This document shows positions 23,890-49,880 of a stretch of 64,000 nucleotides of DNA, one piece after another. The DNA is taken from assembly GCA_037783415.1 (NCBI GenBank), contig JAZGTN010000009.1, positions 62,001 to 126,000 on the forward strand, read 5' to 3'. This DNA comes from Leptasterias polaris. Taxonomy: Eukaryota; Echinodermata; Asteroidea; Forcipulatida; Asteriidae. The notes beneath the pieces were generated by a model that was not told the DNA's origin, searched no databases, and saw only the letters and a program-made list of their open reading frames with translations. Within the stretch, counting starts at the first letter, position 1. Each line of letters begins with the position of its first letter. Both the position numbers and the translations under genes were made by a program.

Positions 23890-23997
23890 TTTGTACAAGA
23901 AGTGTGTTCGAAGTGTTGGCAATAACTCTGAGTTGTCTGTGATGTAGCCTTTTCACTACGTTTTAGCCCTAATTCTTTTGATCTAGCCCTGTTACTA

Positions 23998-24435: not shown

Positions 24436-24541
24436 CTGACACACACTTACTAAAATCTAGTCGGTCTGGTTAACAAAATGGAGTTCTCATTGATTTATTA
24501 TACTGTCTGTCTTCTTTCTTTGCTCTGTTTTCATGTAACAG

Positions 24542-24878
24542 TTGGACAGAAACAAGTGACCGGAGAGAGATGATCAAAAGCCCTTACGAAATATGTCTGG
24601 TTTAAATTCAATTAAATGCAAAACAGAGAGATACAGGAAATCTACCATTCCACAACTTGCCCAGATGTTGTAATAGTTTTTTTATTAATGGTTTTGTTAA
24701 TTTTGTACTTTTTACTTTATTGCCCTTTAATATGTGATCTTTTATATTTTTACATGTGCTTATATTTTTACCATTGTTAAATGACCCTTTCAGCTACTGC
24801 TGCTGGTCATTTTGTTTGTATATACCAATAAAAAAAAATGAAAAGAGATATTTGTTTCCAGACACCGATTGACAACAG
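24542..24878 (+). pseudogene. W-family cassette split by a retroposon
   Basis: The 5' part (24542-24580, WTETSDRREM-like) and 3' part (about 24840-24878, ending CCGATTGACAACAG/GTTTGT) are separated by about 260 bp of foreign sequence. The intact relative is at 61220-61306. Confidence 0.75.
24581..24839 (+). mobile_element. Short retroposon inside W cassette
   Basis: The insert ends in CAATAAAAAAAAATG (poly-A-like) on the plus strand. It sits between CAAAAG (24575-24580) and GAAAAG (about 24840), a possible short target duplication. It is probably a 5'-truncated LINE tail or a processed sequence. Confidence 0.6.
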
Positions 24879-25273
24879 GTTTGTACAAGAAGTGTGTTCG
24901 AATTGTTGACAGACACAACAATTTAAATATTGCATTTTGTTTAATGTTTGCCCTAAATACACCAAGGAAGTAGACTTTTTCCTGACGGATAACCCTGAGT
25001 TTTCTGTGATGTAGTCTTTTCACTACGTTTTAGCCCTAATTCTTTTGATCTAGCCCTTTTACTAAGGCTGATCCCTAGAGTCAGGGGAGGTTCGTAGCTG
25101 CTCTCCACCAGTCGTTTTTTGGAAGAGAGTTAATCGTTTTAACTAAGGTTTGCCCAAAAGGTATTTGATGTAGCCCTTTTGACAAAATTGCTCCCTAACA
25201 GTACCTTCTTTATAACCGTTTAAATGAGGGTATGCCCTGAGGTAAATTTTGTAACATAAGTTTGCGCAAGGTA

Positions 25274-25347
25274 TGTTTGTCATCAACAAGAAACTCGTCG
25301 TCTTCCGACAGTCATTGGCCAGTTACCCCAACGCCATTTGTGTAAAG
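25274..25347 (+). pseudogene. Decayed D-family cassette
   Basis: The sequence ACATCAACAAGAAACTCG of the D exon (62230-62388) has its counterpart here as CATCAACAAGAAACTCG, with SDSHWPVTPTP retained. The 5' half is missing and GTGAAAAG has become GTGTAAAG, putting a TAA before the donor. Confidence 0.6.
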
Positions 25348-26151
25348 GTTTGTACAAGTGTTGTGTTCTAAGTCTGCACAGGCGAGAACAAAGTTCATAC
25401 AATGTACATCTTTTTAATAGTGCGACTTGTCTAGTGGTTTGCCCTAAGGATACCTTGGAAGTGGCCTTTTTACTGAGGGATAACGCTGAGATTTTCTTGC
25501 GATGAACCCTAATTTCTTTGATCTAGTCCTGTTACTAAGGCTGACCCTTAAAGGCAAGGGATGTTAGTAGCTGTTCCCCACGGGTCGTTTTTTAGAAGAT
25601 GATTAATAGTCGTTTCTACTAAGGGTTTGCTGAAAGGTACAGTTGATGTAGCCCTTTTATAAGGGTATTCCCTGACGGTACCTATGCCTATTGCCATATG
25701 GATCTCTTTGAAATGGTCTTTTTACTATGGGTATGCGCTAAGAGTTTCACTTGTTGTGGTCGTCTTACTATATTATTTCAGCCCGAAGTGTTGTCTTTAA
25801 AAGTAAGGGAGGTTGTAGCTGTTATCCGCGAGTGCGTGTCATTTTCTTGGAAGAGGGCATTCTCTGCCCCCAATGTAGCCTTTCTAGGTTGCCTGCCCCA
25901 TATGTGCCTTTGATGTTGCCGTTTATTTAAGGGTTCTATCCCGTGACCCCCTGCTTTCTAGAGTACCTTTTTGTGACCGTAGAGTAAGATATCGAGTAAA
26001 TAAAAGAATGCTTTTCTAGAAACAGAATTTACACTTTTCTGGAAAGGAAAATATTTGGCACTTGAAGTTAGCAAACTATGGTTTGTCATTAAGGCTGGAC
26101 TTAACGTATAATTACTTGATCGTGTAAATACCTTTGATGTAGCCTTTTTAT

Positions 26152-26849: not shown

Positions 26850-26930
26850 GAAGCGACGTCCAGTGTCAACTAGTAACTCCTCGTCATCCGACAGTCTTTC
26901 GCCAGTTATGTCAACGCCAACTAAGAAAAG
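26850..26930 (+). CDS. B'-type cassette exon 1 of array
   Basis: The exon is 81 nt, phase 2-2, encoding KRRPVSTSNSSSSDSLSPV, then MSTPTKKR. The acceptor is TTTAAACAG and the donor GTTTGT. It carries the STSNSSS insert that short B exons lack. Confidence 0.75.
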
Positions 26931-27622
26931 GTTTGTACAAGTGTTGTGTTCCAAGTTTGCATAGGCGATAAAAAGTGCATACAATGTACAGTAGCCTTTT
27001 TGCTGAGAGATAACGCTAAGAGCTTCTTGTGATGAAGTCTTTTCACTACGTTTTAACCCTAAATTATTTGATCTAGCCCTGTTACTAAGGCTGATCCTTA
27101 ACGGCAAGGGATGTTAGTATCTGTTCTCCTCGAGTCGTTTTTTGGAAGAGGGTTATATAGTCGTTTTTACTAAGGGTTTGCTCAAAAGATACATTTTGAT
27201 GTAACCCTTTCATAAGGGTATTCCCTAACGGTACCTATGTTTAAGATACAATTTGGTGCGGAAAATATTTGGCACTTTAAGTTAGCATACTACGGTTTGT
27301 CATTAAGACTGGATTTATTGTGTAGATACTTGATCTGATGTGTTTCCCTAATGCCATCTTTGATGTTGCCTCTTTACCAAGAGTTTGTCCTGTTGTTCAT
27401 ATAGATGAAGTCTGTTTACAGAAGGTCCTAAGAGGACCAATGATTTAGTCTTTTTACTTAGGGTTTTACCAAAGTGATTATGCGGGCTTCTTACTAAGGG
27501 TTTGTCCCGATGCAAACATCAAATCCGAGTGGAAATACAGTTTATTAGATATTGATATTAATGTTACAAAAGGAAGTTTTCATTTGTTCTTTTATTAATG
27601 TTTTGTTTTTGTATTTAAACAG

Positions 27623-27685
27623 GAAGCGACGTCCAGTGTCATCCGACAGTCATTGGCCATTTACGCAAACGTCATTTAAGAAAAG
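27623..27685 (+). CDS. B cassette exon 2 of array
   Basis: The exon is 63 nt (21 codons), phase 2-2: KRRPVSSDSHWPFTQTSFKK with Arg completed across each junction. Polypyrimidine tract GTTTTGTTTTTGTATTTAAACAG, donor GTTTGT. Confidence 0.75.
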
Positions 27686-28164
27686 GTTTGTACAAGTGTT
27701 GTGTTCAAAGTCTGCATAGGCGAACAAAAAGTGCATACAATGTACAGTAGCCTTTTTGCTGAGAGATAACGCTAAGAGCTTCTTGTAATGAAGTCTTTTC
27801 ACTACGTTTTAACCCTAAATTATTTGATCTAGCCCTGTTACTAAGAGTTTGCCCTATGGGTAGATTTTGAATGGTTTACCCTATTAAGTATACCTTTTGA
27901 TGTAGCCTTTTCGCTATTGGTTTTCCCTGAGTTTTCAATTTTTGTGCAGCCTTTGTATTGCCGGCTTTTCTTAAGGTTACCTGTGATGTAGCTGTATATT
28001 TGTTTTGTCCTTTAATATTTCAAAAGGGAAATAATTTATTAGTAACTTTGTCGAGTGTAGGGTTGACAGATTTACTCAAGTTTACTCTGGTTGGGTAACA
28101 AAATGAAGTTTCCATTGATCTATTAAAAATGTTGTTCTTCTGTTATCTACCTTTTACGAAATAG

Positions 28165-28317
28165 CAGCAAATCACACAGTGGTAAGAAGCAACATGAACA
28201 AGACATCGTGAATAATGAAGAAGGAACCGTCGTTGAAGCTCCGTCATCGAAGTTACTGAATTCCTCTTCTTCATCAACAGACGAGAGTCCCATCACTCCA
28301 TTGCCATCGTACAAAAG
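28165..28317 (+). CDS. A cassette exon 3 of array
   Basis: The exon is 153 nt, phase 2-2, encoding SSKSHSGKKQHEQDIVNNEE and ending TPLPSYKR. The acceptor lies in CTTTTACGAAATAG. This upstream-array A subtype differs from downstream A exons by PQ to SH and E to Q. Confidence 0.75.
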
Positions 28318-28935
28318 GTTTGTGCAATTTATGTGTTTGGAGTCTTGACAGACACGACAAAAAGGGCATTCAATGAATCTAGCCTTCCTTCTAAGGGTTA
28401 GTTCTAAAGTTGTTTTTTTAATAAATTTTTTTTTTCTGTTCTCCTCGAGTCGTTTTTTGGAAGAGGGTTTATAGTCGTTTTTACTAAGGGTTTGCTCAAA
28501 AGGTACATTTTGATGTAACCCTTTCATAAGGGTATTCCCTAACGGTACCTATGTTTAAGATAAATTTTGGTGCGGAAAATATTTGGCACTTTAAGTTAAC
28601 ATACTACGGTTTGTCATTAAGGCTGGATTTATTGTGTAGATACTTGATCTGATGTGTTTCCCTAATGCCATCTTTGATGTTTCCTCTTTACCAAGAGTTT
28701 GTCCTGTTGTTCATACAGATGAAGTCTGTTTACCGAAGGTCCTAAGAGAACCAATGATTTAGTCTTTTTTCTTAGGGTTTACCATAGTGATTATGCGGGC
28801 TTCTTACTAAGGGTTTGTCCCGATGCAAACATCAAATTCGAGTGGAAATACAGTTTATTAGATATTGATATTAATGTTACAAAAGGAAGTTCTCATTTGT
28901 TCTTTTATTAATGTTTTGTTTTTGTATTTAAACAG

Positions 28936-28998
28936 GAAGCGACGTCCAGTGTCATCCGACAGTCATTGGCCATTTACGCAAACGTCATTTAAGAAAAG
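28936..28998 (+). CDS. B cassette exon 4 of array
   Basis: The exon is 63 nt, phase 2-2, same peptide as exon 2. The following intron differs in its A-run (GGCGAAAAAAAATTGC). Confidence 0.75.
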
Positions 28999-29478
28999 GT
29001 TTGTACAAGTGTTGTGTTCAAAGTCTGCATAGGCGAAAAAAAATTGCATACAATGTACAGTAGCCTTTTTGCTGAGAGATAACGCTAAGAGCTTCTTGTA
29101 ATGAAGTCTTTTCACTACGTTTTAACCCTAAATTATTTGATCTAGCCCTGTTACTAAGAGTTTGCCCTAAGGGTAGATTTTGAATGGTTTACCCTATTAA
29201 GTATACCTTTTGATGTAGCCTTTTCGCTATTGGTTTTCCCTGAGTTTTCAATTTTTGTGCAGCCTTTGTATTGCCGGCTTTTCTTAAGGTTACCTGTGAT
29301 GTAGCTGTATATTTGTTTTGTCCTTTAATATTTAAAAAGGGAAATAATTTATTAGTAACTTTGTCGAGTGTAGGGTTGACAGATTTACTCAAGTTTACTC
29401 TGGCTGGGTAACAAAATGAAGTTTCCATTGATCTATTAAAAATGTTGTTCTTCTGTTATCTACCTTTTTACGAAATAG

Positions 29479-29631
29479 CAGCAAATCACACAGTGGTAAG
29501 AAGCAACATGAACAAGACATCGTGAATAATGAAGAAGGAACCGTTGTTGAAGCTCCGTCATCGAAGTTACTGAATTCCTCTTCTTCATCAACAGACGAGA
29601 GTCCCATCACTCCATTGCCATCTTACAAAAG
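29479..29631 (+). CDS. A cassette exon 5 of array
   Basis: The exon is 153 nt, phase 2-2, SSKSHSGKK start, LPSYKR end. The intron after it is shortened, lacking the GACAGACACGACAAAAAGGG stretch found after most A exons. Confidence 0.75.
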
Positions 29632-30193
29632 GTTTGTGCAATTCATGTGTTTGGAGTCTTGACTTCCTTCTAAGGGTTAGTTCTAAAGGTTTTGGGGTTT
29701 TTTATTTATATTTTCTGTTCTCCTCGAGTCGTTTTTTGGAAGAGGGTTATATAGTCGTTTTTACTAAGGGTTTGCTCAAAAGGTACATTTTGATGTAACC
29801 CTTTCATAAGGGTATTCCCTAACGGTACCTATGTTTAACATAAATTTTGGTGCGGAAAATATTTGGCACTTTAAGTTAACATACTACGGTTTGTCATTAA
29901 GGCTAGATTTATTGTGTTGATACTTGATCTGATGTGTTTCCCTAATGCCATCTTTGATGTTGCCTCTTTACCAAGAGTTTGTCCTGTTTACCGAAGGTCC
30001 TAAGAGGAGCAATGATTTAGTCTTTTTTCTTAGGGTTTACCATAGTGATTATGCGGGCTTCTTACTAAGGGTTTGTCCCGATGCAAACATCAAATCCGAG
30101 TGGAAATACAGTTTATTATATATTGATATTAATGTTACAAAAGGAAGTTCTCATTTGTTCTTTTATTAATGTTTTGTTTTTGTATTTAAACAG

Positions 30194-30256
30194 GAAGCGA
30201 CGTCCAGTGTCATCCGACAGTCATTGGCCATTTACGCAAACGTCATTTAAGAAAAG
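30194..30256 (+). CDS. B cassette exon 6 of array
   Basis: The exon is 63 nt, phase 2-2, the standard B peptide (KRRPVSSDSHWPF...). The preceding frame is open through the acceptor only by chance. Confidence 0.75.
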
Positions 30257-30736
30257 GTTTGTACAAGTGTTGTGTTCAAAGTCTGCATAGGCGAAAAAAA
30301 AGTGCATACAATGTACAGTAGCCTTTTTGCTGAGAGATAACGCTAAGAGCTTCTTGTAATGAAGTCTTTTCACTACGTTTTAACCCTAAATTATTTGATC
30401 TAGCCCTGTTACTAAGAGTTTGCCCTAAGGGTAGATTTTGAATGGTTTACCCTATTAAGTATACCTTTTGATATAGCCTTTTCGCTATTGGTTTTCCCTG
30501 AGTTTTCAATTTTTGTGCAGCCTTTGTATTGCCGGCTTTTCTTAAGGTTACCTGTGATGTAGCTGTATATTTGTTTTGTCCTTTAATATTTCAAAAGGGA
30601 AATAATTTATTAGTAACTTTGTCGAGTGTAGGGTTGACAGATTTACTCAAGTTTACTCTGGCTGGGTAACAAAATGAAGTTTCCATTGATCTATTAAAAA
30701 TGTTGTTCTTCTGTTATCTACCTTTTTACGAAATAG

Positions 30737-30889
30737 CAGCAAATCACTTAGTGGTAAGAAGCAACATGAACAAGACATCGTGAATAATGACGAAGGAACC
30801 GTTGTTGAAGCTCCGTCATCGAAGTTACTGAATTCCTCTTCTTCATCAACAGACGAGAGTCCCATCACTCCATTGCCATCTTACAAAAG
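30737..30889 (+). CDS. A cassette exon 7 of array, variant
   Basis: The exon is 153 nt, phase 2-2, with two changes against its neighbours: SSKSLSGKK (His to Leu) and NNDEGT (Glu to Asp). It ends LPSYKR. Confidence 0.75.
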
Positions 30890-30939
30890 GTTTGTGCAAT
30901 TCCTGTGTTTGGAGTCTTGACTTCCTTCTAAGGGTTAGT

Positions 30940-31070
30940 TTTTTTGTTTTTTTTTATATTCTTAAATTACTGTTTACATCTGTACTTTTTATTATTGTAA
31001 TGCGCATCTGTACATATTTTTTATGAAACTTGCGCATAATAAATGAATAAATTATTATTATTATTATTAG
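30940..31070 (+). mobile_element. Short LINE-tail insertion in intron after exon 7
   Basis: About 130 bp ending GCGCATAATAAATGAATAAATT plus ATT repeats interrupts the phrase AAGGGTTAG/TTCTAAAGG, apparently with a TTAG duplication. The (AATAAA)(ATT)n end marks a 5'-truncated LINE 3' end on the plus strand. Confidence 0.7.
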
Positions 31071-31605
31071 TTCTAAAGGTTTTGGGTTTTTTTATTTATA
31101 TTTTCTGTTCTCCTCGAGTCGTTTTTTGGAAGAGGGTTATATAGTCGTTTTTACTAAGGGTTTGCTCAAAAGGTACATTTTGATGTAACCCTTTCATAAG
31201 GGTATTCCCTAACGGTACTTATGTTTAACATAACTTTTGGTGCGGAAAATATTTGGCACTTTAAGTTAACATACTACGGTTTGTCATTAAGGCTAGATTT
31301 ATTGTGTTGATACTTGATCTGATGTGTTTCCCTAATGCCATCTTTGATGTTGCCTCTTTACCAAGAGTTTGTCCTGTTGTTCATATAGATGAAGTCTGTT
31401 TACCGAAGGTCCTAAGAGGACCAATGATTTAGTCTTTTTTCTTAGGGTTTACCATAGTGATTATGCGGGCTTCTTACTAAGGGTTTGTCCCGATGCAAAC
31501 ATCAAATCCGAGTGGAAATACAGTTTATTATATATTGATATTAATGTTACAAAAGGAAGTTCTCATTTGTTCTTTTATTAATGTTTTGTTTTTGTATTTA
31601 AACAG

Positions 31606-31668
31606 GAAGCGACGTCCAGTGTCATCCGACAGTCATTGGCCATTTACGCAAACGTCATTTAAGAAAAG
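31606..31668 (+). CDS. B cassette exon 8 of array
   Basis: The exon is 63 nt, phase 2-2, standard B peptide. It is followed by another B exon rather than an A exon, the first B-B pair of the array. Confidence 0.75.
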
Positions 31669-32355
31669 GTTTGTACAAGTGTTGTGTTCAAAGTCTGCAT
31701 AGGCGAAAAAAAGTGCATACAATGTACAGTAGCCTTTTTGCTGAGAGATAACGCTAAGAGCTTCTTGTAATGAAGTCTTTTCACTACGTTTTAACCCTAA
31801 ATTATTTGATCTAGCCCTGTTACTAAGGCTGATCCTTAATGGCAAGGGATGTTAGTATCTGTTCTCCTGGAGTCGTTTTTTGGAAGAGGGTTATATAGTC
31901 GTTTTACTAAGGGTTTGCTCAAAAGATACATTTTGATGTAACCCTTTCATAAGGGTATTCCCTAACGGTACCTATGTTTAAGATAAATTTTGGTGCGGAA
32001 AATATTTGGCACTTTAAGTTAACATACTACGGTTTTTTAAGGCTGGATTTATTGTGTAGATACTTGATCTGATGTGTTTCCCTAATGCCATTTTTGATGT
32101 TGCCTCTTTACCAAGAGTTTGTCCTGTTGTTCATATAGATGAAGTCTGTTTACCGAAGGTCCTAAGAGGACCAATGATTTAGTCTTTTTTCTTAGGGTTT
32201 ACCATAGTGATTATGCGGGCTTCTTACTAAGGGTTTGTCCCGATGCAAACATCAAATCCGAGTGGAAATACAGTTTATTATATATTGATATTAATGTTAC
32301 AAAAGGAAGTTCTCATTTGTTCTTTTATTAATGTTTTGTTTTTGTATTTAAACAG

Positions 32356-32418
32356 GAAGCGACGTCCAGTGTCATCCGACAGTCATTGGCCATTTACGCA
32401 AACGTCATTTAAGAAAAG
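32356..32418 (+). CDS. B cassette exon 9 of array
   Basis: The exon is 63 nt, phase 2-2, identical peptide to exon 8, 750 bp downstream of it. Confidence 0.75.
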
Positions 32419-32900
32419 GTTTGTACAAGTGTTGTGTTCAAAGTCTGCATAGGCGAGAAAAAAAGTGCATACAATGTACAGTAGCCTTTTTGCTGAGAGA
32501 TAACGCTAAGAGCTTCTTGTAATGAAGTCTTTTCACTACGTTTTAACCCTAAATTATTTGATCTAGCCCTGTTACTAAGAGTTTGCCCTATAGGGTAGAT
32601 TTTGAATGGTTTACCCTATTAAGTATACCTTTTGATGTAGCCTTTTCGCTATTGGTTTTCCCCGAGTTTTCAATTTTTGTGCAGCCTTTGTATTGCCGGC
32701 TTTTCTTAAGGTTACCTGTGATGTAGCTGTATATTTGTTTTGTCCTTTAATATTTCAAAAGGGAAATAATTTATTAGTAACTTTGTCGAATGTAGGGTTG
32801 ACAGATTTACTCAAGTTTACTCTGGCTGGGTAACAAAATGAAGTTTCCATTGATCTATTAAAAATGTTGTTCTTCTGTTATCTACCTTTTTACGAAATAG

Positions 32901-33053
32901 CAGCAAATCACACAGTGGTAAGAAGCAACATGAACAAGACATCGTGAATAATGAAGAAGGAACCGTTGTTGAAGCTCCGTCATCGAAGTTACTGAATTCC
33001 TCTTCTTCATCAACAGACGAGAGTCCCATCACTCCATTGCCATCTAACAAAAG
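32901..33053 (+). CDS. A cassette exon 10 of array, PSNKR variant
   Basis: The exon is 153 nt, phase 2-2. The usual PSYKR end is PSNKR (TAC to AAC), shared with exons 13, 16 and 23. Confidence 0.75.
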
Positions 33054-33670
33054 GTTTGTGCAATTTATGTGTTTGGAGTCTTGACAGACACGACAAAAAG
33101 GGCATTCAATGAATCTAGCCTTCCTTCTTAGGGTTAGTTCTAAAGTTTTTTGGTTTTTTTATATTATATTTTCTGTTCTCCTCGAGTCGTTTTTTGGAAG
33201 AGGGTTATATAGTCGTTTTTACTAAGGGTTTGCTCAAAAGATACATTTTGATGTAACCCTTTCATAAGGGTATTCCCTAACGGTACCTATGTTTAAGAAA
33301 AATTTTGGTGCGGAAAATATTTGGCACTTTAAGTTAACATACTACGGTTTTTTAAGGCTGGATTTATTGTGTATATACTTGATCTGATGTGTTTCCCTAA
33401 TGCCATTTTTGATGTTGCCTCTTTACCAAGAGTTTGTCCTGTTGTTCATATATATGAAGTCTGTTTACCGAAGGTCCTAAGAGGACCAATGATTTAGTCT
33501 TTTTTCTTAGGGTTTACCATAGTGATTATGCGGGCTTCTTACTAAGGGTTTGTCCCGATGCAAACATCAAATCCGAGGGGAAATACAGTTTATTAGATAT
33601 TGATATTAATGTTACAAAAGGAAGTTCTCATTTGTTCTTTTATTAATGTTTTGTTTTTGTATTTAAACAG

Positions 33671-33751
33671 GAAGCGACGTCCAGTGTCAACTAGTAACTC
33701 CTCGTCATCCGACAGTCTTTCGCCAGTTATGTCAACGCCAACTAAGAAAAG
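33671..33751 (+). CDS. B' cassette exon 11 of array
   Basis: The exon is 81 nt, phase 2-2, with the STSNSSSS insert and MSTPTKKR end, same peptide as exon 1. Confidence 0.75.
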
Positions 33752-34438
33752 GTTTGTACAAGTGTTGTGTTCTAAGTTTGCATAGGCGATAAAAAGTGCA
33801 TACAATGAACAGTAGCCTTTTTGCTGAGAGATAACGCTAAGAGCTTCTTGTGATGAAGTCTTTTCACTACGTTTTAACCCTAAATTATTTGATCTAGCCC
33901 TGTTACTAAGGCTGATCCTTAATGGCAAGGGATGTTAGTATCTGTTCTCCTGGAGTCGTTTTTTGGAAGAGGGTTATATAGTCGTTTTACTAAGGGTTTG
34001 CTCAAAAGATACATTTTGATGTAACCCTTTCATAAGGGTATTCCCTAACGGTACCTATGTTTAAGATTAATTTTGGTGCGGAAAATATTTGGCACTTTAA
34101 GTTAACATACTACGGTTTTTTAAGGCTGGATTTATTGTGTAGATACTTGATCTGATGTGTTTCCCTAATGCCATTTTTGATGTTGCCTCTTTACCAAGAG
34201 TTTGTCCTGTTGTTCATATAGATGAAGTCTGTTTACCGAAGGTCCTAAGAGGACCAATGATTTAGTCTTTTTTCTTAGGGTTTACCATAGTGATTATGCG
34301 GGCTTCTTACTAAGGGTTTGTCCCGATGCAAACATCAAATCCGAGTGGAAATACAGTTTATTAGATATTGATATTAATGTTACAAAAGGAAGTTCTCATT
34401 TGTTCTTTTATTAATGTTTTGTTTTTGTATTTAAACAG

Positions 34439-34501
34439 GAAGCGACGTCCAGTGTCATCCGACAGTCATTGGCCATTTACGCAAACGTCATTTAAGAAAA
34501 G
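34439..34501 (+). CDS. B cassette exon 12 of array
   Basis: The exon is 63 nt, phase 2-2, standard B peptide. It closes the first 2082-bp A-B'-B unit. Confidence 0.75.
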
Positions 34502-34982
34502 GTTTGTACAAGTGTTGTGTTCAAAGTCTGCATAGGCGAGAAAAAAGTGCATACAATGTACAGTAGCCTTTTTGCTGAGAGATAACGCTAAGAGCTTCTT
34601 GTAATGAAGTCTTTTCACTACGTTTTAACCCTAAATTATTTGATCTAGCCCTGTTACTAAGAGTTTGCCCTATAGGGTAGATTTTGAATGGTTTACCCTA
34701 TTAAGTATACCTTTTGATGTAGCCTTTTCGCTATTGGTTTTCCCCGAGTTTTCAATTTTTGTGCAGCCTTTGTATTGCCGGCTTTTCTTAAGGTTACCTG
34801 TGATGTAGCTGTATATTTGTTTTGTCCTTTAATATTTCAAAAGGGAAATAATTTATTAGTAACTTTGTCGAGTGTAGGGTTGACAGATTTACTCAAGTTT
34901 ACTCTGGCTGGGTAACAAAATGAAGTTTCCATTGATCTATTAAAAATGTTGTTCTTCTGTTATCTACCTTTTTACGAAATAG

Positions 34983-35135
34983 CAGCAAATCACACAGTGG
35001 TAAGAAGCAACATGAACAAGACATCGTGAATAATGAAGAAGGAACCGTTGTTGAAGCTCCGTCATCGAAGTTACTGAATTCCTCTTCTTCATCAACAGAC
35101 GAGAGTCCCATCACTCCATTGCCATCTAACAAAAG
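34983..35135 (+). CDS. A cassette exon 13 of array, PSNKR variant
   Basis: The exon is 153 nt, phase 2-2, a duplicate of exon 10 placed 2082 bp downstream. Confidence 0.75.
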
Positions 35136-35752
35136 GTTTGTGCAATTTATGTGTTTGGAGTCTTGACAGACACGACAAAAAGGGCATTCAATGAATCTAG
35201 CCTTCCTTCTTAGGGTTAGTTCTAAAGTTTTTTGGTTTTTTTAAATTATATTTTCTGTTCTCCTCGAGTCGTTTTTTGGAAGAGGGTTATATAGTCGTTT
35301 TTACTAAGGGTTTGCTCAAAAGATACATTTTGATGTAACCCTTTCATAAGGGTATTCCCTAACGGTACCTATGTTTAAGAAAAATTTTGGTGCGGAAAAT
35401 ATTTGGCACTTTAAGTTAACATACTACGGTTTTTTAAGGCTGGATTTATTGTGTATATACTTGATCTGATGTGTTTCCCTAATGCCATTTTTGATGTTGC
35501 CTCTTTACCAAGAGTTTGTCCTGTTGTTCATATATATGAAGTCTGTTTACCGAAGGTCCTAAGAGGACCAATGATTTAGTCTTTTTTCTTAGGGTTTACC
35601 ATAGTGATTATGCGGGCTTCTTACTAAGGGTTTGTCCCGATGCAAACATCAAATCCGAGGGGAAATACAGTTTATTAGATATTGATATTAATGTTACAAA
35701 AGGAAGTTCTCATTTGTTCTTTTATTAATGTTTTGTTTTTGTATTTAAACAG

Positions 35753-35833
35753 GAAGCGACGTCCAGTGTCAACTAGTAACTCCTCGTCATCCGACAGTCT
35801 TTCGCCAGTTATGTCAACGCCAACTAAGAAAAG
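35753..35833 (+). CDS. B' cassette exon 14 of array
   Basis: The exon is 81 nt, phase 2-2, a duplicate of exon 11 at 2082 bp distance. Confidence 0.75.
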
Positions 35834-36520
35834 GTTTGTACAAGTGTTGTGTTCTAAGTTTGCATAGGCGATAAAAAGTGCATACAATGAACAGTAGCCT
35901 TTTTGCTGAGGGATAACGCTAAGAGCTTCTTGTGATGAAGTCTTTTCACTACGTTTTAACCCTAAATTATTTGATCTAGCCCTGTTACTAAGGCTGATCC
36001 TTAATGGCAAGGGATGTTAGTATCTGTTCTCCTGGAGTCGTTTTTTGGAAGAGGGTTATATAGTCGTTTTACTAAGGGTTTGCTCAAAAGATACATTTTG
36101 ATGTAACCCTTTCATAAGGGTATTCCCTAACGGTACCTATGTTTAAGATTAATTTTGGTGCGGAAAATATTTGGCACTTTAAGTTAACATACTACGGTTT
36201 TTTAAGGCTGGATTTATTGTGTAGATACTTGATCTGATGTGTTTCCCTAATGCCATTTTTGATGTTGCCTCTTTACCAAGAGTTTGTCCTGTTGTTCATA
36301 TAGATGAAGTCTGTTTACCGAAGGTCCTAAGAGGACCAATGATTTAGTCTTTTTTCTTAGGGTTTACCATAGTGATTATGCGGGCTTCTTACTAAGGGTT
36401 TGTCCCGATGCAAACATCAAATCCGAGTGGAAATACAGTTTATTATATATTGATATTAATGTTACAAAAGGAAGTTCTCATTTGTTCTTTTATTAATGTT
36501 TTGTTTTTGTATTTAAACAG

Positions 36521-36583
36521 GAAGCGACGTCCAGTGTCATCCGACAGTCATTGGCCATTTACGCAAACGTCATTTAAGAAAAG
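36521..36583 (+). CDS. B cassette exon 15 of array
   Basis: The exon is 63 nt, phase 2-2, a duplicate of exon 12 at 2082 bp distance. The downstream intron has lost one T (AAAGTCGCATAGG). Confidence 0.75.
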
Positions 36584-37063
36584 GTTTGTACAAGTGTTGT
36601 GTTCAAAGTCGCATAGGCGAGAAAAAAGTGCATACAATGTACAGTAGCCTTTTTGCTGAGAGATAACGCTAAGAGCTTCTTGTAATGAAGTCTTTTCACT
36701 ACGTTTTAACCCTAAATTATTTGATCTAGCCCTGTTACTAAGAGTTTGCCCTATAGGGTAGATTTTGAATGGTTTACCCTATTAAGTATACCTTTTGATG
36801 TAGCCTTTTCGCTATTGGTTTTCCCCGAGTTTTCAATTTTTGTGCAGCCCTTGTATTGCCGGCTTTTCTTAAGGTTACCTGTGATGTAGCTGTATATTTG
36901 TTTTGTCCTTTAATATTTCAAAAGGGAAATAATTTATTAGTAACTTTGTCGAGTGTAGGGTTGACAGATTTACTCAAGTTTACTCTGGCTGGGTAACAAA
37001 ATGAAGTTTCCATTGATCTATTAAAAATGTTGTTCTTCTGTTATCTACCTTTTTACGAAATAG

Positions 37064-37216
37064 CAGCAAATCACACAGTGGTAAGAAGCAACATGAACAA
37101 GACATCGTGAATAATGAAGAAGGAACCGTTGTTGAAGCTCCGTCATCGAAGTTACTGAATTCCTCTTCTTCATCAACAGACGAGAGTCCCATCACTCCAT
37201 TGCCATCTAACAAAAG
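37064..37216 (+). CDS. A cassette exon 16 of array, PSNKR variant
   Basis: The exon is 153 nt, phase 2-2, a duplicate of exon 13 at 2081 bp distance. Confidence 0.75.
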
Positions 37217-37836
37217 GTTTGTGCAATTTATGTGTTTGGAGTCTTGACAGACACGACAAAAAGGGCATTCAATGAATCTAGCCTTCTTTCTTAGGGTTAG
37301 TTCTAAAGTTTTTTGGGTTTTTTAAATTATATTTTCTGTTCTCCTCGAGTCGTTTTTTGGAAGAGGGTTATATAGTCGTTTTTACTAAGGGTTTGCTCAA
37401 AAGATACATTTTGATGTAACCCTTTCATAAGGGTATTCCCTAACGGTACCTATGTTTAAGATAAATTTTGGTGCGGAAAATATTTGGCACTTTAAGTTAA
37501 CATACTACGGTTTGTCATTAAGACTGGATTTATTGTGTAGATACTTGATCTGATGTGTTTCCCTATTGCCATCTTTGATGTTGCCTCTTTACCAAGAGTT
37601 TGTCCTGTTGTTCATATAGATGAAGTCTGTTTACCGAAGGTCCTAAGAGGACCAATGATTTAGTCTTTTTTCTTAGGGTTTACCATAGTGATTATGCGGG
37701 CTTCTTACTAAGGGTTTGTCCCGATGCAAACATCAAATCCGAGTGGAAATACAGTATATTATATATTGATATTAATGTTACAAAATGAAGTTCTCATTTG
37801 TTCTTTTATTGATGCTTTGTTTTTGTATTTAAACAG

Positions 37837-37899
37837 GAAGCGACGTCCAGTGTCATCCGACAGTCATTGGCCTTTTACTCAAACGTCATTTAAGAAAAG
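37837..37899 (+). CDS. B cassette exon 17 of array
   Basis: The exon is 63 nt, phase 2-2, the B peptide preserved through synonymous changes (CCTTTTACTCAA against CCATTTACGCAA). Confidence 0.75.
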
Positions 37900-38380
37900 G
37901 TTTGTACAAGTGTTGTGTTCAAAGTCTGCATAGGCGAGAAAAAAGTGCATACAATGTACAGTAGCCTTTTTGCTGAGAGATAACGCTAAGAGCTTCTTGT
38001 AATGAAGTCTTTTCACTACGTTTTAACCCTAAATTATTTGATCTAGCCCTGTTACTAAGAGTTTGCCCTATAGGGTAGATTTTGAATGGTTTACCCTATT
38101 AAGTATACCTTTTGATGTAGCCTTTTCGCTATTGGTTTTCCCCGAGTTTTCAATTTTTGTGCAGCCTTTGTATTGCCGGCTTTTCTTAAGGTTACCTGTG
38201 ATGTAGCTGTATATTTGTTTTGTCCTTTAATATTTCAAAAGGGAAATAATTTATTAGTAACTTTGTCGAGTGTAGGGTTGACAGATTTACTCAAGTTTAC
38301 TCTGGCTGGGTAACAAAATGAAGTTTCCATTGATCTATTAAAAATGTTGTTCTTCTGTTATCTACCTTTTTACGAAATAG

Positions 38381-38533
38381 CAGCAAATCACACAGTGGTA
38401 AGAAGCAACATGAACAAGACATCGTGAATAATGAAGAAGGAACCGTTGTTGAAGCTCCGTCATCGAAGTTACTGAATTCCTCTTCTTCATCAACAGACGA
38501 GAGTCCCATCACTCCATTGCCATCTTACAAAAG
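38381..38533 (+). CDS. A cassette exon 18 of array
   Basis: The exon is 153 nt, phase 2-2, ending PSYKR. The downstream block reads GTGTTTGAAGTTTTGA, a slight variant of the usual intron start. Confidence 0.75.
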
Positions 38534-39154
38534 GTTTGTGCAATTCATGTGTTTGAAGTTTTGACAGACACGACAAAAAGGGCATTCAATGAATCTAGCC
38601 TTCCTGCTAAGGGTTAGTTCTAAAGTTTTTTTGTTTTTTTTATATTATATTTTCTGTTCTCCTCGAGTCGTTTTTTGGAAGAGGGTTATATAGTCGTTTT
38701 TACTAAGGGTTTGCTCAAAAGGTACATTTTGATGTAACCCTTTCATAAGGGTATTCCCTAACGGTACCTATGTTTAAGATAAATTTTGGTGCGGAAAATA
38801 TTTGGCACTTTAAGTTAACATACTACGGTTTGTCATTATGGCTGGATTTATTGTGTAGATACTTGATCTGATGTGTTTCCCTAATGCCATCGTTGATGTT
38901 GCCTCTTTACCAAGAGTTTGTCCTGTTGTTCATATAGATGAAGTCTGTTTACCGAAGGTCCTAAGAGGACCAATGATTTAGTCTTTTTTCTTAGGGTTTA
39001 CCATAGTGATTATGCGGGCTTCTTACTAAGGGTTTGTCCCGATGCAAACATCAAATCCGAGTGGAAATACAGTGTATTATATATTGATATTAATGTTACA
39101 AAAGGAAGTTCTCATTTGTTCTTTTATTAATGTTTTGGTTTTGTATTTAAACAG

Positions 39155-39235
39155 GAAGCGACGTCCAGTGTCAACTAGTAACTCCTCGTCATCCAACAGT
39201 CTTTCGCCAGTTATGTCAACGCCAACTAAGAAAAG
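39155..39235 (+). CDS. B' cassette exon 19 of array, Ser-Asn-Ser variant
   Basis: The exon is 81 nt, phase 2-2, with SDSLSPV changed to SNSLSPV (GAC to AAC). Confidence 0.75.
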
Positions 39236-39915
39236 GTTTGTACAAGTGTTGTGTTCTAAGTTTGCATAGGCGATAAAAGGTGCATACAATGAACAGTAGC
39301 CTTTTTGCTGAGAGATAACGCTAAGAGCTTCTTGTGATGAAGTCTTTTCACTACGTTTTAACCCTAAATTATTTGATCTAGCCCTTTTACTAAGGCTGAT
39401 CCTTAATGGCAAGGGATGTTAGTATCTGTTCTCCTCGAGTCGTTTTTTGGAAGAGGGTTATATAGTCGTTTTTACTAAGGGTTTGCTCAAAAGATACATT
39501 TTGATGTAACCCTTTCATAAGGGTATTCCCTAACGGTACCTATGTTTAAGATAAATTTTGGTGCGGAAAATATTTGGCACTTTAAGTTAACATACTACGG
39601 TTTGTCATTAAGACTGGATTTATTGTGTAGATACTTGATCTGATGTGTTTCCTATTGCCATCTTTGATGTTGCCTCTTTACCAAGAGTTTGTCCTGTTGT
39701 TCATATAGATTAAGTCTGTTTACCGAAGGTCCTAAGAGGACCAATGATTTAGTCTTTTTTCTTAGGGTTTACCATAGTGATTATGCGGGCTTCTTACTAA
39801 GGGTTTGTCCCGATGCAAACATCAAATCCGAGTGGAAATACAGTTTATTATATATTGATATTAAGGAAGTTCTCATTTGTTCTTTTATTAATGTTTTGTT
39901 TTTGTATTTAAGCAG

Positions 39916-39978
39916 GAAGCGACGTCCAGTGTCATCCGACAGTCATTGGCCATTTACTCAAACGTCATTTAAGAAAAG
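39916..39978 (+). CDS. B cassette exon 20 of array
   Basis: The exon is 63 nt, phase 2-2, standard B peptide. The acceptor is TTTAAGCAG instead of TTTAAACAG, shared with exon 22. Confidence 0.75.
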
Positions 39979-40459
39979 GTTTGTACAAGTGTTGTGTTCA
40001 AAGTCTGCATAGGCGAGAAAAAAGTGCATAAAATGTACAGTAGCCTTTTTGCTGAGAGATAACGCTAAGAGCTTCTTGTAATGAAGTCTTTTCACTACGT
40101 TTTAACCCTAAATTATTTGATCTAGTCCTGTTACTAAGAGTTTGCCCTATAGGGTAGATTTTGAATGGTTTACCCTATTAAGTATACCTTTTGTTGTAGC
40201 CTTTTCGCTATTGGTTTTCCCCGAGTTTTCAAATTTTGTGCAGCCTTTGTATTGCCGGCTTTTCTTAAGGTTACCTGTGATGTAGCTGTATATTTGTTTT
40301 GTCCTTTAATATTTCAAAAGGGAAATAATTTATTAGTAACTTTGTCGAGTGTAGGGTTGACAGATTTACTCAAGTTTACTCTGGCTGGGTAACAAAATGA
40401 AGTTTCCATTGATCTATTAAAAATGTTGTTCTTCTGTTATCTACCTTTTTACGAAATAG

Positions 40460-40612
40460 CAGCAAATCACACAGTGGTAAGAAGCAACATGAACAAGACA
40501 TCGTGGATAATGAAGAAGGAACCGTTGTTGAAACTCCGTCATCGAAGTTACTGAATTCCTCTTCTTCATCAACAGACGAGAGTCCCAACACTCCATTGCC
40601 ATCTTACAAAAG
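40460..40612 (+). CDS. A cassette exon 21 of array, most diverged A
   Basis: The exon is 153 nt, phase 2-2, with three replacements: IVDNEEG (Asn to Asp), VVETPSS (Ala to Thr) and ESPNTPLP (Ile to Asn). Confidence 0.75.
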
Positions 40613-41219
40613 GTTTGTGCAATTCATGTGTTTGAAGTCTGTCAAAGACACGACAAAAAGGGCATTCAATGAATCTAGCCTTCCTTCTAAGGGTTAGTTC
40701 TAAAGTTTTTTGTTTTTTTAAATTATATTTTCTGTTCTCCTCGAGTCGTTTTTTGGAAGAGGGTTATATAGTCGTTTTTACTAAGGGTTTGCTCAAAAGG
40801 TACATTTTGATGTAACCCTTTCATAAGGGTATTCCCTAACGGTACCTATGTTTAAGATAAATTTTGGTGCGGAAAATATTTGGCACTTTAAGTTAACATA
40901 CTACGGTTTTTTAAGGCTGGATTTATTGTGTAGATACTTGATCTGATGTCTTTCCCTAATGCCATTTTTGATGTTGCCTCTTTACCAAGAGTTTGTCCTG
41001 TTGTTCATATATATGAAGTCTGTTTACCGAAGGTCCTAAGAGGACCAATGATTTAGTCTTTTTTCTTAGGGTTTACCATAGTGATTATGCGGGCTTCTTA
41101 CTAAGGGTTTGTCCCGATGCAAACATCAAATCCGAGTGGAAATACAGTTTATTATATATTGATATTAAGGAAGTTCTCATTTGTTCTTTTATTAATGTTT
41201 TGTTTTTGTATTTAAGCAG

Positions 41220-41282
41220 GAAGCGACGTCCAGTGTCATCCGACAGTCATTGGCCATTTACGCAAACGTCATTTAAGAAAAG
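41220..41282 (+). CDS. B cassette exon 22 of array
   Basis: The exon is 63 nt, phase 2-2, standard B peptide after the TTTAAGCAG acceptor. Confidence 0.75.
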
Positions 41283-41761
41283 GTTTGTACAAGTGTTGTG
41301 TTCAAAGTCTGCATAGGCGAGAAAAAGTGCATAAAATGTACAGTAGCCTTTTTGCTGAGAGATAACGCTAAGAGCTTCTTGTAATGAAGTCTTTTCACTA
41401 CGTTTTAACCCTAAATTATTTGATCTAGCCCTGTTACTAAGAGTTTGCCCTATAGGGTAGATTTTGAATGGTTTACCCTATTAAGTATTCCTTTTGATGT
41501 AGCCTTTTCGCTATTGGTTTTCCCCGAGTTTTCAATTTTTGTGCAGCCTTTGTATTGCCGGCTTTTCTTAAGGTTACCTGTGATGTAGCTGTATATTTGT
41601 TTTGTCCTTAATATTTCAAAAGGGAAATAATTTATTAGTAACTTTGTCGAGTGTAGGGTTGACAGATTTACTCAAGTTTACTCTGGCTGGGTAACAAAAT
41701 AAAGTTTCCATTGATCTATTAAAAATGTTGTTCTTCTGTTATCTACCTTTTTACGAAATAG

Positions 41762-41914
41762 CAGCAAATCACACAGTGGTAAGAAGCAACATGAACAAGA
41801 CATCGTGAATAATGAAGAAGGAACCGTTGTTGAAGCTCCGTCATCGAAGTTACTGAATTCCTCTTCTTCATCAACAGACGAGAGTCCCATCACTCCATTG
41901 CCATCTAACAAAAG
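41762..41914 (+). CDS. A cassette exon 23 of array, PSNKR variant
   Basis: The exon is 153 nt, phase 2-2. It is the last A exon before the constant region. Confidence 0.75.
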
Positions 41915-42520
41915 GTTTGTGCAATTCATGTGTTTGGAGTCTTGACAGACACGACAAAAAGGACATTCAATGAATCTAGCCTTCCTTCTAAGGGTTAGTT
42001 CTAAAGGTTTTTTTATTTTTTATTTATATTTTCTGTTCTCCTCGAGTCGTTTTTTGGAAGAGGGTTATATAGTCGTTTTTACTAAGGGTTTGCTCAAAAG
42101 GTACATTTTGATGTAACCCTTTCATAAGGGTATTCCCTAACGGTACCTATGTTTAAGATACATTTTGGTGCGGAAAATATTTGGCACTTTAAGTTAACAT
42201 ACTACGGTTTTTTAAGGCTGGATTTATTGTGTAGATACTTGATCTGATGTGTTTCCCTAATGCCATTTTTGATGTTGCCTCTTTACCAAGAGTTTGTCCT
42301 GGTGTTCATATATATGAAGTCTGTTTACCGAAGGTCCTAAGAGGACCAATGATTTAGTCTTTTTTCTTAGGGTTTACCATAGTGATTATGCGGGCTTCTT
42401 GCTAATGGTTTGTCCCGATGCAAACATCAAATCCGAGTGGAAATACAGTTTATTATATATTGATATTAAGGAAGTTCTCATTTGTTCTTTTATTAATGTT
42501 TTGTTTTTGTATTTAAACAG

Positions 42521-42583
42521 GAAGCGACGTCCAGTGTCATCCGACAGTCATTGGCCATTTACGCAAACGTCATTTAAGAAAAG
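42521..42583 (+). CDS. B cassette exon 24 of array
   Basis: The exon is 63 nt, phase 2-2, standard B peptide. Confidence 0.75.
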
Positions 42584-43273
42584 GTTTGTACAAGTGTTGT
42601 GTTCAAAGTCTGCATAGGCGAGAAAAAAGTGCATACAATGTACAGTAGCCTTTTTGCTGAGAGATAACGCTAAGAGCTTCTTGTGATGAAGTCTTTTCAC
42701 TACGTTTTAACCCTAAATTATTTGATCTAGCCCTGTTACTAAGGCTGATCTTTAATGGCAAGGGATGTTAGTATCTGTTCTCATCGAGTCGTTTTTTGGA
42801 AGAGGGTTATTTAGTCGTTTTTACTAAGGGTTTGCTCAAAAGATACATTTTGATGTAACCCTTTCATAAGGGTATTCCCTAACGGTACCTATGTTTAAGA
42901 TAAATTTTGGTGCGGAAAATATTTGGCACTTTAAGTTAACATACTACGGTTTGTCATTAAGGCTGGATTTATTGTGTAGATACTTGATCTGATGTGTTTC
43001 CCTAATGCCATCTTTGATGTTGCCTCTTTACCAAGAGTTTGTCCTGTTGTTCATATAGAAGTCTGTTTACCGAAGGTCCTAAGAGGACCAATGATTTAGT
43101 CTTTTTACTTAGAGTTTTACCATAGTGATTATGCGGGCTTCTTACTAAGGGTTTGTCCCGATGCAAACATCAAATCCGAGTGGAAATACAGTTTATTAGA
43201 TATTGATATTAATGTTACAAAAGGAAGTTATCATTTGTTCTTTTATTAATGTTTTGTTTTTGTATTTAAACAG

Positions 43274-43354
43274 GAAGCGACGTCCAGTGTCAACTAGTAA
43301 CTCCTCGTCATCCGACAGTCATTGGCCAGTTACGCAAACGTCATTTAAGAAAAG
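43274..43354 (+). CDS. B'' hybrid cassette exon 25 of array
   Basis: The exon is 81 nt, phase 2-2. It combines the STSNSSSSDS insert of B' with the SHWPVTQTSFKKR end of short B, which suggests it is ancestral to both forms or a recombinant. Confidence 0.75.
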
Positions 43355-43566
43355 GTTTGTACAAGTGTTGTGTTCCAGGTTTGCATAGTCGAGAAAAAAG
43401 TGCATACAATGTACGGTAGCCTATTTGCTGATAGATAACGCTAAGAGCTTCTTGTAATGAAGTCTTTTCACTACGTTTTAACCCTAAATTATTTGATCTA
43501 CTAAGGCTGATCCTTAAAAGCAAGGGATGTTAGTATCTTTTTTGCACGAGTCGTTTTGTGGAATAG

Positions 43567-43930
43567 GGTTTGCCCTAAGGGCGCATTTTGATATACCTTT
43601 TGTATCATGGGTTTGCCCTAATGGCGCATTTTGATATAGCCTTTTGTATCATGGGTTTGCCCTAAGGGCGCATTTTGATATAGCCTTTTGTATCATGGGT
43701 TTGCCCTAAGGGCGCATTTTGATATAGCCTTTTGTATCATGGGTTTGCCCTAAGGGCGCATTTTGATATAGCCTTTTGTATCATGGGTTTGCCCTAAGGG
43801 CGCATTTTGATATAGCCTTTTGTATCATGGGTTTGCCCTAAGGGCGCATTTTGATATAGCCTTTTGTATCATGGGTTTGCCCTAAGGGCGCATTTTGATA
43901 TAGCCTTTTGTATCATGGGTTTGCCCTAAG
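43567..43930. repeat. Homogeneous 44-bp minisatellite, about 8 copies
   Basis: The unit GGGTTTGCCCTAAGGGCGCA plus TTTTGATATAGCCTTTTGTATCAT is repeated almost without change in an intron. Its core is the same motif found degenerate throughout the window. It has no unique spacers, so it is not a CRISPR. Confidence 0.95.
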
Positions 43931-44313
43931 TTTGGTTGATCAAAGGAAACTATTAGCTTATGGTTGCCTTTGATCTAGTGATTTTACTAAGGGTTTTTCC
44001 TAAGGGTACATTTTATAATGGGGTTGCGGTAAGTGTACCTATGATGTAATTCTTTTACTAGGAGTTTTCCCCAAAGGATGTGACTTTTTTATGAAAGGTT
44101 TTCCCAAAGGGTCCTTTATTTAGCCTTTTACTAATGGATGTCCTTAATATTTGTGTTTCCCCTTTAGTACTGCAATACTGACACGATTCATCTGTAACTT
44201 TGTCGAGTGCATTGTTGACATACTTTTACTACAATTTAATTAGTCTGGGTATATGAAGTTTTCATTGACTTATTAATACCGTCCTTATTTATTACATATT
44301 TTGTCTGAAACAG
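43931..44313 (+). other. Intron before C cassette, copy 2
   Basis: Nearly identical to 63,608-63,990 of copy 3 (GTTTGGTTGATCAAAGGAAA onward), fixing the alignment of the two gene copies. It ends in a pyrimidine-rich tract and the CAG acceptor. Confidence 0.7.
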
Positions 44314-44439
44314 TGGAAGATCAACCACATCAAGAAACATCTCCTTATCCGACATTCAATGGCCCGAAACATCTTCGCCAACAATTAACTCGTCCTCTGG
44401 AAGTCATTGGCTCTTGAGCCAAAAACAAGTTGTGAAAAG
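44314..44439 (+). CDS. C cassette exon 26, last of upstream array
   Basis: The exon is 126 nt (42 codons), phase 2-2, encoding SGRSTTSRNISLSDIQWPE, then a Ser-rich stretch with SGSHWLLSQKQVVKR. SDIQWPETS and SGSHWL look like two relatives of the B core SDSHWP. The GTTTGTACAA donor matches the other families. A homologue starts at 63991 in copy 3. Confidence 0.7.
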
Positions 44440-45124: not shown

Positions 45125-45182
45125 CCACAAACCAGCAACGAAAGAGACGTTGGATAATCTTTTGGACGAGGAAGCAACAAAA
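45125..45182 (+). CDS. Linker exon between cassette array and zinc-finger exon
   Basis: The exon is 58 nt, entering in phase 2 after ACAAACCAG and leaving in phase 0 at a canonical GTAAGT. It encodes HKPATKETLDNLLDEEATK. It is the only small exon here that changes phase, so it is needed to connect phase-2 cassettes to the phase-0 start of the next exon. A second AG 11 bases downstream could serve as an alternative acceptor. Confidence 0.65.
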
Positions 45183-45490: not shown

Positions 45491-46596
45491 AACGACAGAA
45501 CCAGCCCGCCAAGTGAAAGCCCGTTTAACCACCATAAGGGTCGAATGTGCCCTTTTGGCTGCAAACACCACGGCTTATACAAAAACGTATACGCCCATAT
45601 GGCGAGGGTGCATAAATGTACCATGACAGAAGCAAAAATGAGTTGCAATCGACGAACCGTGAATGCCTGCCGGCCTTCAAAAAAAGAAGACGGCCCAGAA
45701 TTAAACTCTGCAATGGATCTCCTTGAGTCTGATGATAAGGGAAGCTCTGAAGATGATAATAACAGAAGCGACGGCACGGTGCCATCACCACCAACGTCAC
45801 CAGTAAAGAAAACAATGAAGAAAGTTCTAACGCCGTCACAAAGAGGTAAATCAAGGACCAAAACCGAATCCCGTGGGTTGAATTCCTCTTACCCCACATC
45901 CCTCTTTTCGGAATTTAAGAACTTTGTACAGGGTTACAGCATTTGCTTGAAGAACAGTGGCTATCCAAATGAAGTATGTCAAGTTGTTTCAAAGTTTATC
46001 TACTTTGCATGTCACGGGCGCAAAATCGATGACCACACCCAGATTCCATGGGAAACGCTGTATGACGCCACAATCATCCAAGATTGGCTCAGCGAATACA
46101 CAGTTCTGGGTATAGCCCCATCGACGCTCTATAACAAGTTAACTTACATCCAGAAGGCAGCCCAATTTGTGAACATCACCAAAAAGATGCCGTATCCGAT
46201 TGGCTTTGAATCATACCTGAACACAAAGATGAAATTCCTGAGGAAGCAACGGAGAGCAGAGTCCATAAAAAATGCGGATGAAAAGCGTTCTGTTGGAATA
46301 ATAAACTATAAAGAGTTTAATGAAAAAGTTCTACATAACAAAGAAGGTATTGAGAGATTCTCAAACATCGTCCAGGAGGCGAAGGTATCCGGTTCAATTC
46401 CCCCGAGGCGTTTTCTCTTTGGTATGAGACTTGCTCTCGGTTTCACAATCTTCAGCATAGCGTCGAGACCATCCGGTGTATTCACACTTACGATGGATGA
46501 TGTCATCAATCTCCATCAAGGTTGTTGGAACGACTCTCAGGAAGTGGTCATAACAAACACAGCCCACAAGACAGCAGCTTCGAGGGGAGCTTTAAG
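45491..46596 (+). CDS. C2H2 zinc finger and N-terminal/core tyrosine recombinase exon
   Basis: The exon starts in phase 0 after TTCTATCTAG (NDRTSPPSESPFNHHKGR) and leaves in phase 2 at TTTAAG/GTATGA. Domains in order: one C2H2 finger (CPFGC, then H-x4-H in YAHMARVH; C-x3-C-x11-H-x4-H); an acidic/basic linker with SPPTSP; a helical core-binding region (QGYSICLKNSGYPNEVCQVV, IQDWLSEYTV); then the first catalytic blocks. The box I Arg is in IASRPSGVF (codon 46466-46468) and the beta-hairpin Lys in NTAHKTAAS (46568-46570). YR enzymes cut and rejoin DNA through a 3'-phosphotyrosine link. The closest match in kind is animal Cryptons and genes derived from them, in which a DNA-binding domain accompanies a YR. 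An ATG at 45545 could start a shorter protein without cassettes, giving a plausible internal promoter product. Confidence 0.8.
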
Positions 46597-49845: not shown

Positions 49846-49880
49846 GTTGTTCTTATGTTATCTACTTTTTTACAAAATAG

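Follow-up and report, generated by a model that had tools for sequence, protein, structure and literature searches.

A tandem array of symmetric phase-2 exons in a recombinase-like gene of the sea star Leptasterias polaris

Structure of the locus

The window analyzed here is a stretch of 64,000 nt from the sea star Leptasterias polaris (assembly GCA_037783415.1, contig JAZGTN010000009.1, referred to here as C9, positions 62,001 to 126,000). It holds a recombinase-like gene (gene 1), whose core is flanked by tandem arrays of symmetric phase-2 exons, and the beginning of a neighbouring sister gene downstream (gene 2). The array is a real tandem exon array, and the evidence favours a length-variable array in a recombinase-like gene over a combinatorial diversity generator or a Crypton. 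Window coordinates are used unless a contig is named, and features lie on the plus strand unless stated otherwise. An initial annotation had described 26 exon-like units at 26850-44439, and a recount confirmed all of them in position, length and phase: 11 B exons of 63 nt, nine A exons of 153 nt, five C exons of 81 nt and one D exon of 126 nt, together 867 codons. Every unit (26/26) has AG upstream, a GTTTGT donor, a length divisible by three, phase 2 at entry and exit, and no stop. The 5′ cassette array (26850-43354) comprises 16 B/C and nine A exons in the order CBABABABBACBACBABACBABABC, and is followed by exon D (44314-44439). The sequence AAAAGGTTTGT occurs 39 times in the window, always on the plus strand, against a shuffle mean of 0.30.

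The array is not a product of chance, yet it does not represent 26 independent facts, because 25 of the units were copied from just two exon kinds (A and B/C), within which copies differ by 0.8-4.4%. Independent support rests on the exon types. Ten intact types, several of them interrelated, were available (C, B, A, D and six from gene 2, with the broken copies near 23854, 24540, 25265, 26151 and 59768 excluded); AG, GTTTGT, divisibility by three and an open phase-2 frame were found in 10/10, while the first-base frame contained stops in 10/10 and the third frame was also open in 5/10. Fully spliced, the array would contribute 825 residues ahead of D and the core, with basic segments (KKRKRRP at junctions) alternating with Ser/acidic segments. 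From their composition, the Ser/Lys-rich extensions around the core are predicted to be disordered, and the array segments may act as nuclear-targeting or DNA-contact spacers. A Pfam search with the cassette peptides returned a single match, DTHCT, at an E-value of 0.11 and under its cut-off.

The initial annotation also proposed an in-frame path through a linker exon to a zinc-finger tyrosine recombinase (YR) core, and this was borne out. Linker exon L (45125-45182, 58 nt) passes from phase 2 to phase 0 and leads into recombinase exon 1 (45491-46596), which encodes a C2H2-like zinc finger, a linker and the core as far as the first conserved Arg and Lys. Recombinase exon 2 (46796-47044) carries the second conserved Arg, with the His of the HxxR motif replaced, and recombinase exon 3 (47646-47774) carries the conserved His and Tyr and exits in phase 2. 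The gene does not end with this core: a 3′ tail array of A-type exons follows (48878-51718, with exons at 48878-49012, of 135 nt, 49881-50033, 50727-50879 and 51566-51718), and then a donor-less terminal A-type exon (52392 to about 52545) ending in RISPLRL and a stop. A single open frame runs from D through the linker, core and tail to that stop. Our exon-body searches, which cover 216 kb of C9, recovered 39 A-type exons, 33 with a donor at exactly 153 nt, one with a donor at 135 nt and five terminal ones without a donor.

Upstream of the array, gene 1 retains only remains of a 5′ part resembling that of gene 2 (E0, E1, E2, E2b, E3 and c are exon names coined in this analysis). These are a non-coding first-exon-like stretch with a donor near 20878 and a 27-nt E0 (SATQPSFDK, about 21255-21281), together spanning 20400-21281, and decayed exons at 23854-25348, where E1 is broken by about 250 bp and E3 is truncated with an in-frame TAA. 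E2, the likely start-codon exon of gene 2, was not found in gene 1 in the 216 kb of C9.

Related genes and distribution of the exons

The 5′ part of gene 2 lies at 59650-64000 and consists of E0, a broken E1, E2, E1, E2b, E3, a single exon c (63017-63094) and the start of D. Its recombinase exons are outside the window, with recombinase exon 1 at C9:127003, and the downstream order is D, L, recombinase and tail. E2 contains an ATG in a Kozak-like context, GCCGCCCATGG, which is the likely start codon. The single exon c occupies the position held in gene 1 by the 16 B/C exons, and the B/C peptides resemble c.

Genome-wide searches covered 629.7 Mb, and the resulting place counts are lower bounds. 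B/C peptides matched at least 39 places; among those listed, all lie in the gene 1 locus, its C68 counterpart or the E3 exon of gene 2 copies. The tail A peptide matched at least 76 places at E ≤ 0.001, free of stops in 76/76, many of them one and the same place represented on both C9 and contig C68. Of the 76 listed, 75 fall within the first 139 kb of C9, the last 101 kb of C68, the first 30 kb of C70 or the first 2.4 kb of C28. The remaining one is a lone A exon, 94% identical, at C150:1363142-1363297, distant from contig ends; a broken A-like piece on C136 falls outside the 76 listed places. On C68 the array is found again with its order unchanged, differing by six mismatches and eight gaps over 28,005 aligned bases; this is either an allele or one stretch assembled twice, which confirms the order and leaves the independence of the two copies unclear.

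A truncated copy upstream in the window (5733-9856) contains recombinase exon 3, four A exons and a terminal exon. Such truncated 3′ gene ends occur at window-relative positions -62.0, -28.2 and +5.7 kb, with a period of about 33.9 kb, the first of them cut by the start of C9.

Two more distant paralogs, on C143 and C150, are 43% and 34% identical in the alignment and have the zinc finger of genes 1 and 2 as well as both of the phase-2 introns found in the core of those genes. Translated onward with no further intron, both would stop soon after recombinase exon 3 and thus show no A tail; in both, a single long exon rich in KKR and SSSDE, or in PPPSRAS repeats, encodes the N-terminal region next to the core. 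In the C150 paralog a run of PPPSRAS repeats stands between the zinc finger and the core, a linker that grows by repeats within one exon. Gene 1 is a member of a small gene family. Since C143 and C150 share the core introns but show one long N-terminal exon and no A tail, the core probably predates the expandable exons, which would be derived.

Classification of the recombinase-like protein

Tyrosine recombinases carry the catalytic residues R, (K), H, R, H/W and Y. The Phage_integrase profile (PF00589) matched 4/4 paralogs, with a best E-value of 6.6e-8, and the window protein scored 26.7 bits, 0.4 below the curated cut-off. R326, K360, R436, H460 and Y468/Y469 are invariant in 4/4 paralogs, whereas the position of the His in HxxR is occupied by T, T, N and T (placement of the residues was drawn also from a weak PDB alignment, E-value 0.26). 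With that His absent, the protein is designated only as recombinase-like.

The initial annotation called the protein Crypton-like, a reading that we abandon on two grounds. Cryptons, in the part of the source drawn on here, have an R-H-R-Y tetrad (PMC3212892), and the second position is not His in these proteins. The in-frame A-exon tail with its stop also conflicts with the absence of a C-terminal domain in animal Cryptons; C143 and C150 show no tail. Derivation from a Crypton or another YR transposon whose surroundings have degraded is accordingly very improbable, for all that the YR profile matches every paralog: paralogs only 34-43% identical have two phase-2 introns in common, and close full-length copies, among those listed, occur only in the contig-end duplications, the other relatives being frameshifted (C136) or partial (C125, C9:15.4 Mb and C61). 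Mobility, dispersal and short direct repeats at the element ends are further features of Cryptons. The DUF3504 profile had no Pfam match in the four paralogs at E-values up to 1, and assignment to DUF3504 genes was rejected on this ground and on retention of both the Tyr and the second Arg.

Wider searches were negative within their scope. Residues 63-560 of the protein as typed found none at E ≤ 0.01 among 5240 candidates, and the four-member alignment none at E ≤ 0.01 among 6432. A viral scan gave 52 pattern matches with none confirmed, the PDB gave no match at E ≤ 1 for the protein and, with the alignment as query, three weak matches at E ≤ 10, and no Rfam match reached the gathering score in the window.

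Origin and copying of the cassette exons

Self-alignment of the array revealed blocks of 1.5-6.2 kb at 92-98% identity, and adjacent homologous exons are accompanied by homologous introns, as in tandem exon duplication. One B-A unit, taken as an example, is a mosaic: its central part, 32557-33172, corresponds to the tail A units, and the stretches on either side (32300-32579 and 33172-33760) align with the 5′ region of genes 1 and 2. This tail-like insert, an A exon with flanking intron, sits inside a 5′-array intron, and its empty site is seen in the intron 31669-32355. At the left junction, the B-to-B intron that represents the empty site has TTACTAAG, part of the minisatellite motif described below, in common with both the filled site and the tail; the right junction lies within A/T-rich sequence. 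In both genes, as in the truncated copies, A exons stand 3′ of the core; the 5′ part of gene 2 yielded none. From these junctions and this distribution we infer that A reached the 5′ side of the core as a copy of a 3′ exon and was then amplified together with B and C.

The introns of the cassette exons, 5′ and 3′ of the core alike, have similar starts, which the introns of the recombinase core do not share, and a single ancestral exon-intron unit is likely to have spread to either side. Introner-like insertion into one long ancestral exon would account for the shared intron starts without exon-intron duplication; the single long exon beside the core in C143 and C150 would fit, as would the symmetric exons expected from phase-2 insertion at AGG. 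We regard this as quite unlikely, given that the exon ends are also alike by eye (PPFDKR, SAFDNR, SPFDMR, TPFVKR and TPIDKR) and that the copies of B/C and of A clearly arose by duplication of an exon together with its intron.

Between genes 1 and 2 the recombinase differs by a synonymous divergence (dS) of 0.097 and the two core introns by 0.036 and 0.083. Divergence within the 5′ array is 1.5% for A exons, 0.8% for B, 4.4% for C and 1.3-3.1% for introns (using six A-less introns and eight of the nine introns after A exons, with the one after exon 30737 omitted). By comparison of these values, amplification of the array appears no older than the split of the two genes.

Selection on the core and the cassettes

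The nonsynonymous divergence (dN) of the recombinase between genes 1 and 2 is 0.036 against the dS given above. When changes were polarised with C136, leaving out six ambiguous codons and gapped codons, the gene 1 branch had 20 synonymous and 23 nonsynonymous changes (P 0.0004) and the gene 2 branch seven and 10 (P 0.06). The counts on the gene 1 branch indicate, at the level of sequence, that its core is under purifying selection and is maintained.

For the cassettes, the evidence of selection is mixed. No gap event fell in the 297 exon columns compared in the array, where 3.6 were expected (P 0.028), while the 1745 intron columns contained 21. Across 34 A exons (12 distinct sequences), diversity was 0.039 compared with 0.126-0.127 in the flanks, and the sole gap was one of 18 nt. 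Changes in these exons were 6.5 synonymous against 19.5 nonsynonymous (22.7 expected), a near neutral ratio, and the pattern could reflect homogenisation or constraint at the nucleotide level.

These observations bear on whether the array is a dead by-product, an exon region tandemly duplicated after the start exon was lost, with the functional transcript starting near D or L. The failure to find E2, the interrupted E1 and the stop in E3 are what this alternative would lead one to expect, as is the equal divergence of exons and introns inside the array. It is nevertheless unlikely: the gene 1 core is under selection, the 25 cassettes contain no stop or frameshift, gaps are lacking from their exon columns, and an in-frame ATG is present in 4/5 C cassettes.

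Change in exon number and the surrounding repeats

The tail of gene 2 contains five A exons on C68, six on C70 and seven on C9, with the terminal exon extra in each. Flanking the difference, C68 and C9 are 100% identical over 3,266 and 2,210 bp, and C70 and C9 are 99.3% and 100% identical. On C9 two spacings in this tail are 2.0 and 2.8 kb, versus about 0.74 kb usually, and the difference between copies exceeds the A exons alone. As judged from the assembled copies, the number of exons appears to evolve more quickly than point sequence does.

The initial annotation regarded the array as diversity-generating or length-variable, on the model of Dscam. Variation in length is supported at the DNA level by the tail of gene 2, but diversity of sequence is not: the 25 cassettes, recent copies of two exon kinds, encode only eight distinct peptides (the B peptides are identical in 11/11), and exons diverge about as much as introns. 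In Dscam-type arrays the alternative exons are sequence-diverse and one is chosen per transcript; an array that generates sequence diversity was ruled out here on the peptide count. Use of the array by alternative splicing as a source of diversity or length, as first suggested, could coexist with the explanation preferred below but is given a fairly low probability. All cassettes are interchangeable in phase, and their uniform GTTTGT donor looks weaker by eye than the GTAAGT, GTATGA, GTAATT and GTGAGT donors of L and the core; combinations would, however, alter length and scarcely sequence.

Introns and intergenic regions harbour a degenerate minisatellite with the motif ACTAAGGGTTTGCCCTAA, extending over 3665-63751 in the window and from 1 to about 152000 on C9. 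Allowing up to three mismatches, the motif occurs 125 times on the plus strand of the window and never on the minus strand (0.09 expected); a profile derived from it, applied to the 216 kb at E-values up to 10, gave 570 matches on the plus strand and four on the minus strand, with zero coverage in the last 64 kb. A dyad-symmetric recombination site within the minisatellite was considered and rejected: when arm complementarity was scored across 192 distinct contexts, one of six position pairs covaried (70/192 complementary, reached by 0/3000 shuffles), while the other five were reached by 2893-3000 of 3000, and in our view subfamilies explain the single covarying pair. That the recombinase-like protein acts on its own locus, using ACTAAGGGTTTGCCCTAA as a recombination site and rewriting the number and order of the flanking exons in germline or soma, is a scenario to which we give hardly any credence.

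Relative to the window, telomere-type CCCTAA arrays, all oriented as the gene is, lie near -35.7 kb, near -2 kb and from about +94.3 to 95.6 kb; degenerate arrays occur at 12.6 and 56.3 kb. On C70 about 5.9 kb of CCCTAA (C70:7501-13405) directly precedes the segment with a gene 2 copy. Because of these arrays and the A places near contig ends, the locus may belong to a subtelomeric, unstable domain. The window also contains a 392-bp tandem repeat of 9.2 copies (15994-19602) and, on the minus strand at 1593-3181, reading frames that we take to resemble a non-long-terminal-repeat reverse transcriptase.

A model for the locus

The explanation that we favour, with a probability of about 0.72, is that of a zinc finger and YR-like core flanked by symmetric phase-2 expandable exons whose number changes at the DNA level. 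The cassettes would descend from one exon-intron unit, and A would have crossed the core from the tail to reach the 5′ side. The changes would be driven by ectopic or unequal recombination among the minisatellite units of the introns, and phase-2 symmetry would keep every outcome readable, with protein ends changing by 21, 27 or 51 residues. The decayed 5′ exons and the equality of exon and intron divergence weigh against this explanation, and assembly error in repeats is the main caveat on the tail copy counts. The likelihoods assigned to the alternatives discussed above are not mutually exclusive of one another.

Under this model, exon shuffling becomes visible inside one gene, where a coding-type exon on the 3′ side of a recombinase-like core has apparently given rise to a copy on the 5′ side. 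The breakpoint, the empty site and the filled site can be read, and exon copy number differs between near-identical copies. Symmetric introns combined with an intronic minisatellite offer a testable route by which protein length may evolve in whole exons.

Comparison with known systems

Our literature search found no work linking a tyrosine recombinase with exon duplication, exon duplication with an intronic minisatellite, or a subtelomere with a recombinase. In coding minisatellites and repeat-exon proteins, protein length evolves via repeat copy number; here the repeat is a whole exon plus its intron. The micro-exon genes of schistosomes, in the portion of the source used here, build about 80% of the coding region from symmetric exons of 6-36 bp and have secreted or membrane-anchored products, and duplication and shuffling have been suggested for them (PMC5825161). 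The present gene similarly consists mainly of short symmetric exons, but these are mostly 63-153 nt, E0 alone being 27 nt, and stand next to a zinc finger and a YR-like core, and classification as a micro-exon gene was rejected on exon size.

Animal Cryptons and Crypton-derived DUF3504 genes resemble gene 1 in that a YR domain occurs in an animal gene, in some cases together with zinc fingers (PMC3212892, as far as the excerpt considered extends). According to the same excerpt, animal Cryptons have no C-terminal domain and DUF3504 genes have lost the Tyr and the second Arg (PMC3212892), whereas gene 1 has a C-terminal tail and keeps both Arg and the Tyr, with the His of HxxR gone. Arthropod Dscam1 and the chelicerate sDscam genes resemble this gene in having large tandem arrays of cassette exons beside constant exons, and their cassettes, in the sections of the paper relied on, are variable Ig domains that give isoform diversity (PMC4835542). 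In the sea star gene, by contrast, the cassettes are near-identical, of low complexity and placed on both sides of a recombinase-like core.

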